Positions 31,632 to 38,685 of a stretch of 46,610 nt of DNA are shown here, piece after piece. Both the position numbers and the translations under genes were made by a program. The notes under the pieces are model-generated. The model saw only the letters and a program-made list of their open reading frames with translations, did no database searches and was not told where the DNA came from. Each line of letters begins with the position of its first letter. Within the stretch, counting starts at the first letter, position 1. The stretch is from an uncultured Bacteroidales bacterium (lineage in GTDB: Bacteria; Bacteroidota; Bacteroidia; Bacteroidales; Muribaculaceae): assembly GCA_902774055.1 (NCBI GenBank), contig CACYGX010000002.1, forward strand, positions 102,650 through 149,259. The letters are read 5' to 3'.

Positions 31632-33212
31632 CTACTTGACTACATTGCCCAGGATGTCGCGCAATATCTGCCGTCCGGCAGCGCTGGTGGCATTCTTTAC
31701 CGCACGCCCCGCAGCGTCCTTGACGCTGGTGTTCTTGCCTTTCTTGCCCGTGATGGCATCGGACACGGTTTTGCCTAAGATGGTTGCTAGGGTGCCTGTC
31801 ACTGCCGTTACCACGGCTTTCCACACCTTGGACCAGATGGTCTTTTCTTTCTTCTTGGACTTCTCTTCTTTTTCGGCCTCCTTGGCGGCGGCAGCCTCTT
31901 CAGCGGCCTTGGCATCGGCTTCGGCCTCACGTGCAAAGACCTCAAAGACGCTCTCGCGTTCCTGGACTTCTTTATACTTGCGGTTGATGTCGCTGGCGGC
32001 ATTCATGATGTCCAGGCGCTGCCCCTCGGTGATGGCACCGATTTGGCTCAACGGGAAGAGTATCTTGGCGCGTTCGACGACACATGGCGCACCTTTCTCG
32101 TCAAGGAACGACACGAGCGCTTCACCAGTCTCGAGGTTGAGGATGGCGTCCTCAGTCTTGAATTCAGGGTTAGCGCGGAAGGTCTCGGCAGCCACTTTGA
32201 CGGCCTTCTGGTCGCGCGGGGTATAGGCGCGCAGGGCATGCTGCACACGGTTACCCAACTGGCCCAGGATGACATCGGGGATGTCGGTGGGCAGCTGTGA
32301 GATAAAGAAGATACCCACGCCCTTACTGCGAATCAGGCGGATGACTTGCTCAATCTTATCGGTCAGGGCCTTGCTGGTGTCCTCAAACAGCATGTGTGCC
32401 TCGTCAAAGAAGAAGATCAGTTTGGGTTTCTCCAGGTCGCCCACCTCGGGCAGGGTGCTGTAGAGCTCACTCAGCAGCCACAGCAGGAAGGTAGAGTATA
32501 ACTTGGGCTGCAGCATCAGTTTGTCGGCTGCAAGGACACTCAGCACGCCTTGGCCGTCCTTGGTGGCCAGCAGGTCCATGATGTCAAACGAGGGCACGCC
32601 GAAGAACTTATCGGCGCCCTGGTTCTCGAGATGAAGCAATGCACGCTGGATGGCGCCGATGCTGGCGGTGGACACGTTGCCATATTGGGTGGTGTACTCC
32701 TTGGCGTGTCGCGACAGCCAGTCCAGGGCCGAGCGGAGGTCCTTGACATCGTCGAGCAGCACGCCTTTCTCGTCGAGAATGCGGTACAGGATGTTGAGCA
32801 CGCCCGTTTGGGTGTCATTCAGGTTCAGGATGCGGGCCATCAAGTCGGGACCCATCTCGCCAATGGTCGAGCGCATCGAGATGCCTTGCTCGCCAAACAC
32901 GTCATAGAACCTTACTGGGCAGCCCTCAAAGGTCAGGTCGCTCTGATCCATGCCGAACTCGGGCAATCTCTTCTCGATGAAGCCTGACAGCTTGCCCGGC
33001 TGGCTGACTCCCGACAGGTCGCCCTTCATGTCGGCCATGAAGCAGGGCACGCCGGCCTTGCAGAAACTCTCGGCAATCACTTGCAGGGTCACCGTCTTGC
33101 CTGTTCCCGTCGCGCCGGCGATCAGGCCGTGGCGGTTGGCCATGTTGCCCAGGATGCTGATGGGACCGTTAGGCCCGTGGGCGATGTAGAATCCGTTCTC
33201 TTGAGTGTACAT
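31632..33212 (-). CDS. HerA-like ATPase (DUF853 family, YjgR-type)
   Basis: 526 residues, FtsK/HerA-superfamily P-loop ATPase. Seen: N-terminal GPNGPISILGNMANRHGLIAGATGTGKTVTLQVIAESF with Walker A GATGTGKT (about residue 35), DMKGDLSGVSQPGK, Walker B LIFFFDEAHMLFEDTSKAL (about 265), sensor IFFISQLPTDIPDVILGQLGNRVQHALRA. After residue 420 comes an Ala/Glu/Lys-rich coiled coil (AEADAKAAEEAAAAKEAEKEEKSKKKEK), then a hydrophobic C-terminal region. Family members are widespread, and their substrate (DNA or protein pumping) is not settled. No NurA nuclease partner lies nearby, unlike true HerA operons. The promoter is at 33265-33296. Confidence 0.9.
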   Translation of the reverse strand: MYTQENGFYIAHGPNGPISILGNMANRHGLIAGATGTGKTVTLQVIAESFCKAGVPCFMADMKGDLSGVSQPGKLSGFIEKRLPEFGMDQSDLTFEGCPVRFYDVFGEQGISMRSTIGEMGPDLMARILNLNDTQTGVLNILYRILDEKGVLLDDVKDLRSALDWLSRHAKEYTTQYGNVSTASIGAIQRALLHLENQGADKFFGVPSFDIMDLLATKDGQGVLSVLAADKLMLQPKLYSTFLLWLLSELYSTLPEVGDLEKPKLIFFFDEAHMLFEDTSKALTDKIEQVIRLIRSKGVGIFFISQLPTDIPDVILGQLGNRVQHALRAYTPRDQKAVKVAAETFRANPEFKTEDAILNLETGEALVSFLDEKGAPCVVERAKILFPLSQIGAITEGQRLDIMNAASDINRKYKEVQERESVFEVFAREAEADAKAAEEAAAAKEAEKEEKSKKKEKTIWSKVWKAVVTAVTGTLATILGKTVSDAITGKKGKNTSVKDAAGRAVKNATSAAGRQILRDILGNVVK

Positions 33213-33410: not shown

Positions 33411-33441
33411 TTGTTTGTATGAATTATTGAATATATATTTG
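33411..33441 (+). promoter_or_regulatory. Promoter of the trpL-trpB2 transcript
   Basis: -33 TTG (33411-33413), a 20-nt spacer, and -7 TATATTTG (33434-33441). Transcription would begin near 33447, about 15 nt before the leader peptide. Confidence 0.82.
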
Positions 33442-33462
33442 CCGCGTCAACATAAATATGAG

Positions 33463-33525
33463 ATGACAATGACAATGATTTCATTAAATTGGTGGTGGCG
33501 CAACTCGAGATTGAAAAAGTCGTGA
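33463..33525 (+). CDS. Tryptophan leader peptide (trpL-like, 20 aa)
   Basis: A 20-codon ORF: ATG at 33463, then M-T-M-I-S-L-N, three consecutive Trp codons (TGG at 33490-33498), then RNSRLKKS and TGA at 33523-33525. It lies between a consensus promoter and a terminator hairpin ahead of trpB2. WWWRNS closely recalls the WWRTS end of the E. coli trp leader peptide. Its expected job is to be translated: stalling at the Trp codons when charged tRNA-Trp is scarce would change the downstream RNA fold. Methionines at codons 3 and 5 are alternative starts that keep the Trp run. Three Trp codons in a row at random are very unlikely. The peptide itself probably has no other role. Confidence 0.85.
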   Translation: MTMTMISLNWWWRNSRLKKS

Positions 33526-33599
33526 GTCGCCTGACCGTATGGAATCATAAGATTACAATAAAGAAAAAAAAGGTCTGTCGTTCTTGCGACAGACCTTTT
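33491..33599 (+). promoter_or_regulatory. Ribosome-mediated tryptophan attenuator (pause, antiterminator and terminator hairpins)
   Basis: Three mutually exclusive folds can be drawn. 1:2 pause hairpin: ggt (33491) with acc (33534), ggcg (33497-33500) with cgcc (33528-33531), actc (33503-33506) with gagt (33524-33527); arm 1 covers the Trp codons and arm 2 the stop codon. 2:3 antiterminator: gtcgc (33526-33530) with gcgac (33586-33590) and gacc (33533-33536) with ggtc (33572-33575). 3:4 terminator: 13 perfect pairs aaaaggtctgtcg/cgacagacctttt (33568-33599), loop ttcttg. A ribosome stalled on Trp frees arm 2 for 2:3; one that reaches the stop covers arm 2 and lets 3:4 form. On the plus strand the terminator's T run is inside the stem and followed by aaattatt. 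Confidence 0.78.
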
Positions 33600-33626
33600 A
33601 AATTATTAATCATAATCATTACCAAA

Positions 33627-34985
33627 ATGAAACAGAAACGATTTATTCTTCAAGAGAACGAGTTGCCCACAGCATGGTACAACATTCAGGCTGACATGGC
33701 CACCAAGCCCATGCCTCCCATCCATCCTGCCACACGGCAGCCGCTTGGCGTGGACGATTTGGCCCGCATTTTCCCGCGTGAATGTTGTGTGCAGGAACTA
33801 GATACCGAGCACCAGTTCATCCCCATCCCCGAGGAAGTATTGGACAAGTATAAATTCTATCGTTCTACCCCACTCGTGCGTGCCTATGCGCTGGAGCAGG
33901 CCCTGCAGACGCCGGCGCATATCTACTTCAAGAATGAATCGGTAAACCCGTTGGGTTCCCATAAAATCAACTCGGCCCTGGCGCAGTGCTATTATGCAAA
34001 GCAGGAAGGGACCACCAACGTCACCACCGAGACGGGAGCCGGGCAATGGGGTGCTGCCCTGGCCTATGCTGCAAAGGTGTTTGGCCTTGAGGCAGCTGTA
34101 TATCAAGTGAAAATCTCCATGCAACAGAAGCCCTACCGCTCGTCTATCATGCGCACCTTTGGCGCCGCCGTGACGGGTTCGCCTTCCATGTCAACCCGAG
34201 CGGGCAAGGACATCATTACACGCGATCCTCACCACCCAGGATCGCTTGGAACCGCTATATCTGAGGCGGTGGAATTGGCCACAACGACCCCGAACTGCAA
34301 GTACACTCTAGGCTCGGTGCTCAACCATGTGGGCCTTCATCAGACTATCATCGGTCTGGAGGCCGAGAAACAGATGGCCATGGCTGGCGAATATCCCGAT
34401 GTGGTCATTGCCTGTTTTGGTGGCGGCTCAAATTTTGGCGGCATTGCCTTCCCCTTCATGCGTCACAATCTCAAGGACGGCAAGCAGACCGAGTTCATCG
34501 CCGCCGAGCCCGAGAGTTGCCCGAAACTCACACGTGGCGTGTTCCGTTATGATTTTGGTGACGAGGCTGGCTATACCCCGTTGTTGCCGATGTTCACGTT
34601 AGGGCATTCCTTCAAACCAGCCAATATCCATGCTGGAGGCTTGCGTTATCATGGCGCAGGCGTGATTATCTCCCAGTTGCTCAAGGACGGGCTCATGCGC
34701 GGTGTCGATATCCCCCAACTCGAATCCTTTGACGCCGGAATGCTCTTTGCCCGCACTGAGGGCATCATCCCCGCCCCAGAGTCCAGCCACGCCATTGCCG
34801 CTGCCATCCGTGAAGCCGAGAAATGCAAGCAAACGGGCGATGAAAAGGTCATCCTGTTCAATCTCTCGGGCCATGGCCTGATTGACATGACTGCCTACGA
34901 CCAGTATCTGAATGGCGATCTCATGAACTATAGGATCACCGATGCCGACATCGAACGGACCCTGCAGGGCCTGCCCAGCATTTAG
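33627..34985 (+). CDS. trpB: TrpB2-type tryptophan synthase beta subunit
   Basis: 452 residues from the ATG at 33627. The frame is open further upstream but overlaps the leader peptide and terminator, so the later start is chosen. PLP enzyme making L-tryptophan from indole and serine. Seen: N-terminal MKQKRFILQENELPTAWYNIQADM and RSTPLVRAYALEQ, typical of the longer TrpB2 branch (about 450 residues against about 400 for TrpB1), PLP lysine in NPLGSHKINSALAQ (Lys113), ETGAGQWGAALA, and the PLP phosphate loop ACFGGGSNFGG. TrpB2 works without a strong TrpA contact and is thought to salvage free indole. No trpA or other trp gene is in the window, and the gene sits alone behind its own attenuator. 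Indole salvage under Trp shortage is the likely role (inference). Confidence 0.94.
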   Translation: MKQKRFILQENELPTAWYNIQADMATKPMPPIHPATRQPLGVDDLARIFPRECCVQELDTEHQFIPIPEEVLDKYKFYRSTPLVRAYALEQALQTPAHIYFKNESVNPLGSHKINSALAQCYYAKQEGTTNVTTETGAGQWGAALAYAAKVFGLEAAVYQVKISMQQKPYRSSIMRTFGAAVTGSPSMSTRAGKDIITRDPHHPGSLGTAISEAVELATTTPNCKYTLGSVLNHVGLHQTIIGLEAEKQMAMAGEYPDVVIACFGGGSNFGGIAFPFMRHNLKDGKQTEFIAAEPESCPKLTRGVFRYDFGDEAGYTPLLPMFTLGHSFKPANIHAGGLRYHGAGVIISQLLKDGLMRGVDIPQLESFDAGMLFARTEGIIPAPESSHAIAAAIREAEKCKQTGDEKVILFNLSGHGLIDMTAYDQYLNGDLMNYRITDADIERTLQGLPSI

Positions 34986-35138: not shown

Positions 35139-36308
35139 GTGGCTAATAAGAAAGTTTTTGTCTCGGGTTGCTATGACCTGCTACACTCGGGGCACGTGGA
35201 GTTCTTCAGGCAGGCGTCGCAGTTTGGTGACCTGTATGTGGGCATCGGCAGCGACAAGACCATCGAGGCCTTGAAGGGTCACAAGACGATGTATAGCGAG
35301 CAGGAGCGGCTGTTTATGGTGCGCGCCATCCGCTATGTCAAGGAGGCCTACATCAATCAGGGTAGCGGTTTCCTGGACTTCCTGCCCACCCTCGACATGG
35401 TCCATCCTGACTGCCTGGTGGTCAACGAGGACGGCGACCGTGAGGACAAGCGCCAGCTATGCCGTGAGCGCGGCATGGGGTACATCGTGCTCAAGCGTGA
35501 ACCCGGCGAAGGCCTGCAGGCACGCAGTAGCACGGGCCTCAAGCAGGCCGTGAGTCAGCTGCCCACGCGTCTGGACTTGGCGGGGACGTGGATTGACCAA
35601 CCCTATGTCTCATGCTATGCCCCGGGATGGGCGTTGACCATTTCGCTGGAGCCCACCTTTGAGGTGCGTGAGCGTTGCGGCCTGTCCACGAGCACGCGCA
35701 ACACCATCAAACGCGTGTGGCCCATCCAGTTGCCAAACATGGATCCCGAAATGCTGGCGCGACTGGTCTTCTGCCTCGAGAATGACCCGGAGCGCAGCGA
35801 TGGCATCGTGAGCGGAGCCCAGGACGCTATCGGCATCTGTGTGCCTGGCTTGGCGAGGCATTACTATAACGGCAGCTATTGGCCCGAGAAGATAGAATAC
35901 ACCCAGGATCCCGCTTTGCTCGGTTGGCTGGAAGATCACCTGTGCATGATTCCCATGTTCCCACGTCGCCCTGGCTGCAGTGTGGTCCAGGGGAAGGATA
36001 TCACCCCCCAGAAAGTCCGTAATCTTGCTGCTGCTGCCGACGATTGCTGGCAGAGCATCCACCGCATGGACATCGACGGGTTTGCAAGGGCCTACAAGGC
36101 CTCCTTCGAGGCTCAGGTGGCTATGTTCCCGGCGATGATTCAGCCTGGTGTGCAGGACTATATCGACCGATACAGTGCCCTTGATGGCGTGTTGGCGTGG
36201 AAGATGCCTGGAGCTGGAGGCGGCGGTTATCTAGCCCTCGTCTGCCGTGACAGGGACAGTTTCCCCGAGGGAGCCATCACACTCACCATTCGCCGCTCCG
36301 GCATGTAA
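35139..36308 (+). CDS. Nucleotidyltransferase / GHMP-kinase-like fusion protein
   Basis: 389 residues from a GTG start; the ATG at 35132 runs into a stop after four codons, and the N-terminal beta strand begins at once (ANKKVFVSGCYDLLHSGHVEFFRQA). Residues 1-140 form a cytidylyltransferase-like domain with HSGH, the HxGH nucleotide motif, and IGSDKTIEALKG. From about 145 a GHMP-kinase-like part follows: LAGTWIDQPYVSCYAPGWALTISLEP, SGAQDAIGICVPGLARHYYNG (compare GxQDxxAxxxGG of fucokinase/heptose kinases), and the C-terminal GAGGGGYLALV motif. The kinase phosphate loop (PxSSGLGSS) is not evident; LSTSTRNTIKRVW occupies that area. A sugar-1-phosphate activating enzyme was probably the ancestor. 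With a mutarotase and fucose permease downstream, L-fucose or a similar sugar is the likely substrate (inference). It differs from Fkp. Confidence 0.75.
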   Translation: MANKKVFVSGCYDLLHSGHVEFFRQASQFGDLYVGIGSDKTIEALKGHKTMYSEQERLFMVRAIRYVKEAYINQGSGFLDFLPTLDMVHPDCLVVNEDGDREDKRQLCRERGMGYIVLKREPGEGLQARSSTGLKQAVSQLPTRLDLAGTWIDQPYVSCYAPGWALTISLEPTFEVRERCGLSTSTRNTIKRVWPIQLPNMDPEMLARLVFCLENDPERSDGIVSGAQDAIGICVPGLARHYYNGSYWPEKIEYTQDPALLGWLEDHLCMIPMFPRRPGCSVVQGKDITPQKVRNLAAAADDCWQSIHRMDIDGFARAYKASFEAQVAMFPAMIQPGVQDYIDRYSALDGVLAWKMPGAGGGGYLALVCRDRDSFPEGAITLTIRRSGM

Positions 36309-36364
36309 AGATAAAATTACTCCGTTAAAACCGTTATCTCCGTTAAATTCGTCCCATCCGCCAA

Positions 36365-36703
36365 ATGAAACGCTACTGCCAAACCCTAGACCTGCGCGAT
36401 GACCGCGCGATGATTGAGAAATATGTAGAGGCCCATGCCCATGTCTGGCCCGAGATTCAAGAGGGAATCCGCTCGGTTGGTATCCTTGATATGCAGATAT
36501 TTATCCACGGTAACCGACTCTTCATGATATGTGACACGGTCGATGATTTTGACTGGGAGAAGGACAACGCCCGGCTGGCTACACTGCCCCGACAGGCCGA
36601 GTGGGAAGCCTATGTGGCCCAATTCCAGGGCTGCGACCCCGATGCGCCCTCTACCGCCAAATGGCAACTGATGGAACGAATCTTTAAACTTGACACGAAA
36701 TGA
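36365..36703 (+). CDS. L-rhamnose mutarotase family protein
   Basis: 112 residues, RhaM/YiiL family (dimeric alpha-beta barrel). Seen: MKRYCQTLDLRDDRAMIEKYVEAHAHVWPEIQEGIRSVGILDMQIFIHGNRLFMICDT with the His and Tyr positions of the active site, and the closing AKWQLMERIFKLD. Members interconvert alpha and beta anomers of L-rhamnose or L-fucose; several Bacteroidota copies sit in fucose loci, as here. It lies 56 nt after the fusion gene, and its stop overlaps the permease start as ATGA (36700-36703), so the last two are translationally coupled. Confidence 0.9.
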   Translation: MKRYCQTLDLRDDRAMIEKYVEAHAHVWPEIQEGIRSVGILDMQIFIHGNRLFMICDTVDDFDWEKDNARLATLPRQAEWEAYVAQFQGCDPDAPSTAKWQLMERIFKLDTK

Positions 36704-38019
36704 CAACCGATAGTCCAAAGAAATCCCGTATGCTGGTGACCCGTGAGGGCGTGAGCTATGTTTTGCCTTTTATCGTGGTGACCTGCTGCTTTGCCCTTTG
36801 GGGCTTTGCCAACGACATTACCAACCCGATGGTGAAGGCCTTCTCCAAGATTTTCCGCATGAGTGTGACCGACGGCACGCTGGTGCAGGTGGCCTTCTAT
36901 GGTGGCTACTTCTGCATGGCCTTGCCGGCAGCGATGTTTATCCGTCGCCACTCGTTCAAGAGTGGTGTTGTGATGGGGTTATCGCTCTATGCGCTGGGTG
37001 TGCTGCTGTTCATTCCCGCTAAGGCGATGGGCGTCTTTGCGCCATTCCTCCTGGCCTATTTCATCCTTACGTGCGGCTTGTCGTTTCTTGAGACGACTGC
37101 CAATCCCTATATCCTGCTCATGGGCGATGCCGAGACGGCGACCCGTCGATTGAACTTTGCCCAGTCGTTTAACCCCATCGGGTCGTTGACGGGCATGTTC
37201 GTAGCCATGAATTTTATCCAGGCCCGACTTTCCCCGCTTGATACCGCGGAACGGGCAACACTCGACGATGCCAGTTTCGAGGCATTGAAGCAGAGCGACC
37301 TGAGCGTGCTCATTCAGCCCTATGCGCTATTGAGTGTGGTCATCATCCTGTTGCTGGTGGTGCTGTTGATTGTGAAGATACCGTTGGTGCGTCAAAAGGC
37401 ACGCGACGAGCGCGCCCCGCTGTGGCCTGCCGTCAAGCGCTTGTGGGAAAATAAACCCTATCGAAACGGTGTCGTGGCCCAATTCTTCTATGTAGGCGCC
37501 CAGATTACATGTTGGACGTTCATTATCCAGTATGGCACCCGCGTGTTTATGGCCGAGGGTATGACCGAGCAGGCAGCCGAGGTCTTGTCGCAGCGTTACA
37601 ACATTGTGGCAATGGTGCTGTTTTGCCTGATGCGGTTTGTCAACATTTATCTCATGAAATACTTCAAGCCCGGCAGACTTCTGGCCTTTTTTGCAGCCCC
37701 GGCAATGCTGTTGCTGCTCGGCGTTATCCTGATTGGTGGCCGCACTGGAATGTATTGCCTCGTGGGCGTGTCGGCATGTATGAGCCTGATGTTCCCCACC
37801 ATCTATGGCATCGCCCTGGGTGGAGTGCGTCAAGACACCGAGGTGGGCTCGGCAGGACTGATTATGGCCATCTTGGGCGGTAGCGTGCTGCCCGCTCTTC
37901 AAGCGATGATCATCGACAGCAACGTCTCTTTCTTGCCAGCCGTCAACGTCTCCTTCGTCGTCCCCCTGTTCTGCTTCCTGGTAGTCATGCTCTACGGCCT
38001 GCGTAATAGTCGCAGTTAA
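36700..38019 (+). CDS. fucP: L-fucose:H+ symporter (FucP family)
   Basis: 439 residues, twelve-helix major facilitator. Seen: PFIVVTCCFALWGFANDITNPMVKAFSKIF (family start, with the Asp of the NDI motif), VQVAFYGGYFCMALPAAMFIRRHSFKSGVVMGLSLYALG, LSFLETTANPYILLMG with the ETxANP motif typical of FucP, RRLNFAQSFNPIGSLTGMF, and MSLMFPTIYGIALGG. Import of L-fucose by proton symport at the inner membrane is the expected role. It is the last gene of the three-gene operon; palindromes of the transposase element begin 50 nt past its stop and may act as terminators. Confidence 0.93.
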   Translation: MTTDSPKKSRMLVTREGVSYVLPFIVVTCCFALWGFANDITNPMVKAFSKIFRMSVTDGTLVQVAFYGGYFCMALPAAMFIRRHSFKSGVVMGLSLYALGVLLFIPAKAMGVFAPFLLAYFILTCGLSFLETTANPYILLMGDAETATRRLNFAQSFNPIGSLTGMFVAMNFIQARLSPLDTAERATLDDASFEALKQSDLSVLIQPYALLSVVIILLLVVLLIVKIPLVRQKARDERAPLWPAVKRLWENKPYRNGVVAQFFYVGAQITCWTFIIQYGTRVFMAEGMTEQAAEVLSQRYNIVAMVLFCLMRFVNIYLMKYFKPGRLLAFFAAPAMLLLLGVILIGGRTGMYCLVGVSACMSLMFPTIYGIALGGVRQDTEVGSAGLIMAILGGSVLPALQAMIIDSNVSFLPAVNVSFVVPLFCFLVVMLYGLRNSRS

Positions 38020-38068: not shown

Positions 38069-38182
38069 CGCCCATAGGGCGGCCCTCCGTGTAACCCCCT
38101 GTGTTGACCGAAGAACGAGCAAAGCGAGTGAATCGGTCGGCACAGGGGGAGATTGACGAAGAAAAATGTCGCCTACGGCGAC
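38069..38182. repeat. Left palindrome cluster of the transposase element
   Basis: Three palindromes in order: A, cgccc-ata-gggcg (38069-38081); B, ccccctgtgttgaccga...tcggtcggcacaggggg (38095-38149, 17 pairs with G-T wobbles, with gaacgagcaaagcga inside); C, gtcgcc-tac-ggcgac (38168-38182). The same three types recur in reverse order on the other side of the transposase gene. Confidence 0.75.
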
Positions 38183-38232
38183 CCCAAAATGCATTTGTAC
38201 ACTTCAGTCGTATTGTATACTTTTATGACATT

Positions 38233-38685
38233 ATGAGCTACACCAATCTAATCTATCATATCGTATTCCGCACCTATCGCAGCACTCAAGCTATTAATGA
38301 AGATCATGAGCGAGAGTTGTATGCCTATATGCATGGCTATATTGTCCGTCACCGTGGAATACTCTATCGAGTGAACGGAATGCCAGACCATGTGCACCTC
38401 TTGGTGTCATTGCCACCCGATCTGGCCGTTGCCGAATTTGTGAGAGGACTGAAGTATGCCACCAACACATGGCTCAAACAGAACCCAGCATTCCCGGCTT
38501 TTTCGGGTTGGGGTGAGGGTTATGCCGCTTTTACTTATTCTCGTGAGCAGATTCCTGTAGTAAAACAGTATATCATTAACCAGAAGGAGCATCACCACAA
38601 GACTACCTTTGCCGAGGAATACAGGCAATTTATCCTTGATCATGGAGGAGAGATAGACGAGCGGTTTTTCTTGAATGATAAGTGA
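38233..38685 (+). CDS. IS200/Y1-type transposase, REP-associated (RAYT-like)
   Basis: 150 residues from the ATG at 38233; the frame is open earlier but covers palindromes, and SYTNLIYHIVFRTYRST is the usual Y1 start. HUH single-strand DNA transposase: the metal-binding His pair is in MPDHVHLLVSLP (His53, His55), and the nucleophile candidate is Tyr113 in VVKQYIINQKEHHHK. FVRGLKYATNTWLK lies between. Y1 enzymes nick at hairpin-tipped ends; RAYTs move or maintain REP palindromes. The gene is complete and bracketed by mirror-ordered palindromes (38069-38182 and 38700-38840), not by simple inverted repeats. It is followed by a convergent dockerin gene. The RAYT subtype is inferred from the palindromes. 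Confidence 0.85.
   Translation: MSYTNLIYHIVFRTYRSTQAINEDHERELYAYMHGYIVRHRGILYRVNGMPDHVHLLVSLPPDLAVAEFVRGLKYATNTWLKQNPAFPAFSGWGEGYAAFTYSREQIPVVKQYIINQKEHHHKTTFAEEYRQFILDHGGEIDERFFLNDK

Follow-up and report, generated by a model that had tools for sequence, protein, structure and literature searches.

The window analysed here is a stretch of 46,610 nucleotides (nt) from an uncultured gut bacterium of the order Bacteroidales and the family Muribaculaceae (contig CACYGX010000002.1 of assembly GCA_902774055.1), and the element in question is a short leader in front of trpB2, which encodes a TrpB-related protein. From comparison with related leaders, we consider it likely that this element is a ribosome-mediated transcription attenuator of trpB2 and a divergent relative of the Bacteroid-trp leader family (RF01692). 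The original prediction, made from the letters of the window, had proposed attenuation by tryptophan (Trp), and this now appears well supported by the relatives examined. The decisive pairing, which we call the switch helix, would join GUCGUGAG (33519-33526), around the leader stop codon, to its complement CUUGCGAC (33583-33590), comprising the terminator loop and the start of the terminator 3' arm.

All features of the leader lie on the + strand. A Bacteroidota-type promoter can be read from the sequence at 33414..33441 (TTTG at 33414-33417, TAnnTTTG at 33434-33441), followed at 33463..33525 by a leader peptide open reading frame (ORF) of 20 codons, MTMTMISLNWWWRNSRLKKS, which begins with ATG at 33463 and ends with TGA at 33523-33525; in-frame ATGs at 33469 and 33475 are alternative possible starts. 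Three consecutive Trp codons at 33490..33498, evident in the sequence and in the alignment of relatives, are the proposed sensor. A predicted hairpin over these codons (33475..33548) pairs arm 1 with arm 2 and would sequester arm 2 in the state without a ribosome. The part of arm 2 that enters the switch helix holds the leader stop codon, and GACC at 33533..33536, pairing with GGUC at 33572-33575, forms an inner extension of the antiterminator. The terminator hairpin (33568..33599) has 14 base pairs (bp), 33568-33581 with 33586-33599, and a UCUU loop; its end is separated by 27 nt from the ATG of the putative regulated gene, trpB2 (33627..34985), whose product passes both TrpB2 cut-offs (TIGR01415 TrpB-related, 583.6 bits against 518.85; NF009057, 684.5 bits against 366). 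The promoter, the 20-codon ORF with three TGG codons, the hairpins and trpB2 27 nt further on, all of which had been predicted, were confirmed in the sequence.

We infer stalling, termination and antitermination as follows. Where tRNA-Trp is charged, the ribosome would reach the stop at 33523 and cover arm 2, the terminator would form and transcription would end before trpB2. Where tRNA-Trp is uncharged, the ribosome would stall at 33490-33498 and open the arm 1:2 hairpin, and the freed arm 2 (GUCGUGAG with GACC) would capture segments of the terminator (its 5' part, its loop and its 3' arm, GGUC...CUUGCGAC) as these leave RNA polymerase, such that trpB2 is transcribed. If no ribosome starts, the arm 1:2 hairpin and then the terminator should form. 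Because about ten bases at the growing end of the transcript are covered by RNA polymerase, the antiterminator has a chance to form while part of the terminator is still hidden; we infer that the switch is under kinetic control.

The fold of the leader exceeds chance. The minimum free energy (MFE) of 33447-33605 is -50.7 kcal/mol (z = -6.3, with 0 of 200 shuffles as low), and a fold cut at 33575 still gives z = -3.0 (2 of 200 as low). In the full fold, representing the state without a ribosome, the arm 1:2 hairpin and the terminator form together. When the sequence before 33511 is omitted, the antiterminator is the MFE structure at 3' ends 33588, 33590 and 33592 (-12.0 to -18.0 kcal/mol), and the terminator is the MFE structure at 33595, the next end tried, and beyond. 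Omitting the sequence up to 33537, to mimic a ribosome at the stop, removes arm 2 by design, and the fold is then the terminator. Terminator and antiterminator are thus mutually exclusive, with the stop codon in or beside the arm they share, which is what marks the attenuator class.

Measured against RF01692, the window scores 40.4 bits, under the curated gathering score of 49, with 131 of 131 model positions aligned; its E-values were 0.0025, 0.0038 and 0.0012 depending on the search, and 0.32 in a larger search. The cut-off is reached by none of 16 loci (the window, L001, and 15 relatives with a trpB2 leader). A covariance model built from 19 trpB2 leaders alone nonetheless finds 10 of the 10 trp-operon leaders given to it (nine of L083-L112, and L246), the best being L246 (99.9 bits, E 4e-25), L088 (67.3 bits, E 9e-16) and L084 (66.9 bits) and the weakest L112 (E 0.002), and these matches include leaders that pass the RF01692 cut-off (L246, L088, L084). 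In a permissive RF01692 scan, 5 of a different set of 16 loci, which are of trpB2 type (12 from the genus, counting the window, with L011, L013, L028 and L044), were found at E <= 1. On the strength of the covariance-model matches the trpB2 leader is clearly homologous to RF01692-type leaders.

The trp-operon leaders come from 58 loci matching RF01692 (L083-L112 and L222-L249): 30 from 295 genomes of the order (E 0.01; 43 match, 15 pass) and 28 from 395 genomes of the phylum (E 0.001; 41 match, 37 pass). Of the latter, L246 belongs to the window's order; the remaining 27 represent further families of the class that fall outside that order, presumably Flavobacteriales. The next gene is TrpB-like at 23 of the 58 loci, TrpE-like at 33, a label taken from a single representative (TIGR00564 as best hit, with 417.9 bits against a cut-off of 517.7), and without a call at two (L094, L103). 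The 23 TrpB-like products are taken for TrpB1 because they are at most 31% identical to the TrpB2 of the window.

It is these operon leaders that bring out the switch helix. Across 28 of them (29 less L085, whose ORF reads through arm 2) and three trpB2 leaders, 90.8% of alignment cells are paired and five of the eight pairs are changed on both sides; 12 cells show such a double change, where shuffles give 4.3 and none of 500 gives as many, and versions of the helix slid out of register are 26-50% paired. Paired changes are seen in L108 (ACCGUGAGU with ACUUACGGU), L107 (UCGUGAAC with GUUCGCGA) and L106 (GUGAGG with CCUCAC), and L109 keeps the loop match despite a different terminator stem. In a test of native against swapped partners, covering 70 rows after removal of 11 duplicates, pairing of arm 2 with the loop and 3' arm averaged -10.02 kcal/mol for native partners and -8.28 kcal/mol for swapped ones in 29 trp-operon leaders, with none of 2000 permutations as low; L094, at a contig end and with no hairpin, was omitted here and from the count of helix lengths. 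That count gives a switch helix of at least 6 bp in 18 of 19 trpB2 leaders, 22 of 29 trp-operon leaders and 21 of 22 leaders from the wider class. An altered letter in the 5' arm breaks one terminator pair in seven of the 19 trpB2 leaders, and yet the 3' letter of that pair matches arm 2 in every one of the 19. The terminator stem itself covaries in both leader sets. Of the compensatory changes expected in three hairpins, therefore, those of the terminator and the switch helix were found, but the arm 1:2 hairpin, paired in 85.7% of cells across the 19 trpB2 leaders, is kept with no covariation beyond shuffles.

The Trp run is retained across the 19-row alignment of trpB2 leaders, as WCW in four rows and as two Trp codons in one (L044). 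Each of the 19 distinct leaders has TAnnTTTG ahead of its first Trp codon, 53-65 nt away in 18 of them; shuffled stretches show the motif in 8% of cases. The leader stop is TGA within GTCGTGAG (in RNA, UGA within GUCGUGAG) in 14 of the 19; L002, L007, L028 and L044 stop two codons sooner, at UAG or UAA, and L119 has lost the UGA, with an ORF that continues past it and a switch helix that persists with C-G in place of U-G or U-A. In the trp-operon leaders L091 and L085 the arm 2 segment is translated through as codons and is still present, which argues that it is kept as RNA.

Within the TrpB2 locus set (the top 80 retained out of 584 in named genomes), a screen of the 300 nt upstream found the leader peptide at 15 loci (L002-L004, L006-L013, L015, L028, L034, L044); it is missing from that interval at 65, one of which, L005, has only 119 nt of upstream sequence. 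The ORF screen also flagged unrelated ORFs in L020, L026, L049 and L065. Relatives that keep trpB2 and lack the leader, a pattern that the original prediction had named as contrary to it, do therefore occur at 65 of 80 loci, but most of them belong to other TrpB2 lineages. Of 297 genomes sampled from the window's family, 159 gave a match to TrpB2, and the window and 109 upstream regions were examined, some of them short (L121, L124, L126, L129, L166, L217). The leader was found in 11 of 11 other genomes of the same genus with TrpB2 at least 92% identical, one of which (G471) carries leader and gene on two contigs; it was found in none of 18 genomes of that genus with TrpB2 69-72% identical, nor in any of 80 regions from other genera of the family. 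On a quick tree of 110 TrpB2 proteins, 24 of 26 leader-bearing rows fall in one clade of 26 rows (Shimodaira-Hasegawa-like approximate likelihood ratio test, SH-aLRT, 97), L028 and L044 lying outside it, and the leader label needs 4 changes against 23.5 in shuffles. The other two rows of the clade, L005 and L121 (G471), are near-identical proteins on contigs that start 119 nt before the gene. The leaderless trpB2 loci look like absence or loss outside one clade.

Run over the 297 family genomes, the trpB2-leader model gave 12 strong matches (137-164 bits), of which 11, including the window, precede trpB2 and one lies at a contig end (L253). Among 18 weaker-match loci read besides L253, L262, L264 and L274 show by eye a Trp-containing ORF before trpB1; the other 15 were set aside as leaders, having the look of unrelated terminators. 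L274 is from G577, a genome of the window's genus with no trpB2 match, and its short leader ORF contains WW, which suggests that the genus holds both leader settings, trpB2 and trpB1. In G471 the 3' end of L253 (contig C3) and the 5' end of L121 (contig C45) carry GTGTCCACTAAAAA and TTTTTAGTGGAC, which resemble insertion-element termini, and an insertion element apparently separates the attenuator from trpB2 in this genome. At L042 (2856-2976) and L057 (2805-2953), trpB2 has a leader-like terminator with the same loop letters and no Trp ORF, TAnnTTTG standing some 18 nt before the hairpin in L042; both are possible decayed attenuators. Trp ORFs at L142, L145 and L153, where TrpB2 is 69-72% identical, were set aside as unproven: they bear no resemblance to it, the screen found no hairpin of at least 9 bp, and the trpB2-leader model had no match in the genomes concerned (G386, G543 and G538 respectively). 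The ORF at L142 has three Trp codons (WGWKKVKW) and starts 152 nt before a trpB2 of 71% identity, and could be an unrelated Trp leader or chance.

Several observations weigh against the attenuator as we describe it. The native partner is best or tied in just four of the 29 trp-operon leaders, and it has no advantage over swapped partners inside the trpB2 set (261 of 2000) or among the 22 wider-class leaders (657 of 2000), two sets whose sequences are too alike for this comparison to discriminate. Inside the trpB2 set alone the switch helix has no change on both sides, and the arm 1:2 hairpin covaries no better there than in shuffles; the permutation and shuffle controls, moreover, ignore the relatedness of the sequences. 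A helix of at least 6 bp also arises with shuffled arm 2 in 44% (trpB2), 25% (trp-operon) and 31% (wider-class) of cases, while the helix has 5 bp in L009, falls below 6 bp in seven of 29 trp-operon and one of 22 wider-class leaders, as counted within a narrow search range, and is not obvious by eye in L274. At equilibrium the full terminator (-26.6 kcal/mol) is more stable than the forced antiterminator (-18.0 kcal/mol), and for this reason the model needs kinetic capture. Lastly, the tail after the terminator stem in the window, TTTTAAATT, is weak and short: on the + strand the TTTT of the stem is followed by AAATTATT, with AAATT after that U-tract, the tail reads TTTTAAATTATT, and a consensus terminator scanner calls the hairpin on the - strand only, with none on the + strand. 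All 16 leaders of the close clade (TrpB2 at least 92% identical) have 3-5 T in the eight positions after the stem. The terminator is thus weaker than the original prediction had claimed.

That tail invites the explanation that the hairpin is poor at ending transcription in the window's genus, and that the leader acts on trpB2 translation or mRNA stability. The short U-tract of the close clade and the - strand call favour it, the U-tract being of 6-7 T in seven of eight more distant trpB2 leaders, and longer by eye in the trp-operon leaders. The hairpin nevertheless ends 27 nt before the trpB2 start, and its stem, its loop and the switch helix are kept both inside and outside the close clade, all of which makes the explanation quite improbable to us. 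The better T-tail on the - strand could even point to no regulator whatever, only an ORF rich in Trp by chance, next to a terminator that is bidirectional or belongs to the minus strand; we give this scarcely any credence, given that the Trp run, the promoter distance and the hairpin are conserved in 19 distinct leaders and that the neighbouring gene on the left (31632-33212, - strand) begins at 33212, runs away from the leader and needs no terminator here. Action in trans of the released leader RNA or peptide on other genes, as is reported for the Sinorhizobium trp attenuator (PMC7298713), would account for the residues SRLKKS after the Trp run, which are well conserved among trpB2 leaders; their codons lie also in paired RNA arms, which could explain that conservation, and trans action seems to us very improbable.

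A more direct competitor concerns the antiterminator. In the Escherichia coli trp leader the antiterminator takes the 5' arm of the terminator, and arm 2 might do likewise here, the match to the loop and 3' arm being secondary. The pairs of GACC with GGUC are in keeping with this, all four being present in 15 of 19 trpB2 leaders and three in the remaining four, and, by eye, the stretch that follows the leader stop in L262 seems complementary to the terminator 5' arm; the conservation of GACC is ambiguous, however, because the arm 1:2 hairpin also uses GACC, to pair with the Trp codons. In the 29 trp-operon leaders, the match of arm 2 to the 5' arm around the stop codon reaches a weak -4.07 kcal/mol, with no excess over swapped partners (1993 of 2000 permutations as low), as against -10.02 kcal/mol, below all 2000, for the loop and 3' arm. 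Pairing with the 5' arm was accordingly not favoured as the main switch when tested around the stop, and we regard it as unlikely. The antiterminator of the original prediction would have as its partner mainly the terminator loop and 3' arm, and not only the 5' arm.

The source genome is 94% complete and has only one TrpB2 match at E <= 10; searching it gave no match to trpA and none to a chorismate-binding domain. It does encode a tryptophanase, TnaA (L280, contig C5), at 905.9 bits against 750 for NF053783 and under the cut-off of TIGR02617. No tnaC-like leader was seen before tnaA among upstream + strand ORFs of at least 20 amino acids, nor any Rfam match at E <= 0.1. TrpB-type enzymes make Trp from indole and serine. 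A cell able to break Trp down to indole and remake it would have reason to make TrpB2 only when tRNA-Trp is uncharged, and tRNA-Trp may gate the remaking of Trp from indole. The same genome also holds, at L281 (contig C33), a homologue of the indolepyruvate ferredoxin oxidoreductase alpha subunit (531.9 bits, where the cut-off is 650.9; the match contains one TGA). This homologue is a possible second route between indole compounds and Trp.

Taking these strands together, we lean, with modest confidence, towards a wider proposal: that Trp leaders across the Bacteroidota use a loop-capture antiterminator, in which the segment holding the stop codon captures the terminator's apical loop and 3' arm and the outcome is settled while the loop leaves RNA polymerase, and that in one lineage without a Trp pathway such a leader was put, or kept, before trpB2, such that a cell holding tryptophanase would remake Trp from indole only with uncharged tRNA-Trp. 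Trp attenuation in the phylum, known for the biosynthetic operon, would thereby also cover a salvage enzyme, and would do so in a genome without trpA or chorismate-binding matches. If this is true, tRNA charging gates the uptake of indole into Trp in these bacteria, a point relevant to indole levels around tryptophanase-bearing Bacteroidales. The trpB2 leaders fall below the Rfam cut-off and are missed by it, and a specific, mutable switch helix is now proposed for the Bacteroid-trp leader family.

Elsewhere in the window, Rfam at its gathering cut-offs reports two tRNAs only. Positions 35139-38019 encode a fused cytidylyltransferase-like and kinase-like protein, a small ORF that is mutarotase-like by eye (36365-36703) and a FucP permease (549.9 bits), and look like a fucose utilisation cluster. 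The ORF at 38101-38685, by eye, we take to resemble a REP-associated or IS200-type transposase.

Searches of the open-licence literature turned up no case of trpB2 attenuation in Bacteroidota and no experimental mechanism for the Bacteroid-trp leader family: a survey of terminator-based attenuators (PMC2965389) lacks the words 'bacteroid' and 'tryptophan' and uses 'Trp' once, on NusA, and the accessible portions of PMC2395257 and PMC4833913 contain no description of a trpB2 leader. RF01692 itself appears as a table row in PMC2864571 under the name 'Bacteroidete tryptophan peptide leader RNA', a listing that dates from 2010, and the discussion section of PMC6414381 mentions it in front of the Flavobacterium psychrophilum trp operon; the supposition that Trp attenuation was undescribed in the phylum is thus not supported. 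That attenuation of trpB2 had no earlier description stands as far as this literature goes, but the leader family was already known.

The leader of the window resembles RF01692 in its phylum, its Trp-rich leader ORF, a UCGURAG segment, the 5' part of the terminator and its position upstream of a tryptophan gene, and TAnnTTTG likewise stands upstream in 25 of 29 trp-operon leaders. It differs in preceding trpB2 and not a trp operon. The RF01692 consensus ends inside the terminator, before the loop, and the Rfam model is thus without the switch helix. It is homologous to the trp-operon leaders L083-L112 and L222-L249, and most of them have the switch helix in common with it, but their next gene is TrpB1- or TrpE-like in 56 of 58. 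The E. coli trp leader (RF00513) has the same run of Trp codons, stop codon in arm 2, alternative hairpins and terminator before the gene; the window, in contrast, scores only 13.9 bits against the RF00513 cut-off of 41 (E = 5.9), and where the E. coli antiterminator takes the 5' arm, the one proposed here would capture the terminator loop and 3' arm. A Trp leader in Bacteroidota is thus known; what is new is trpB2 as the regulated gene and a switch helix that lies outside the Rfam model.

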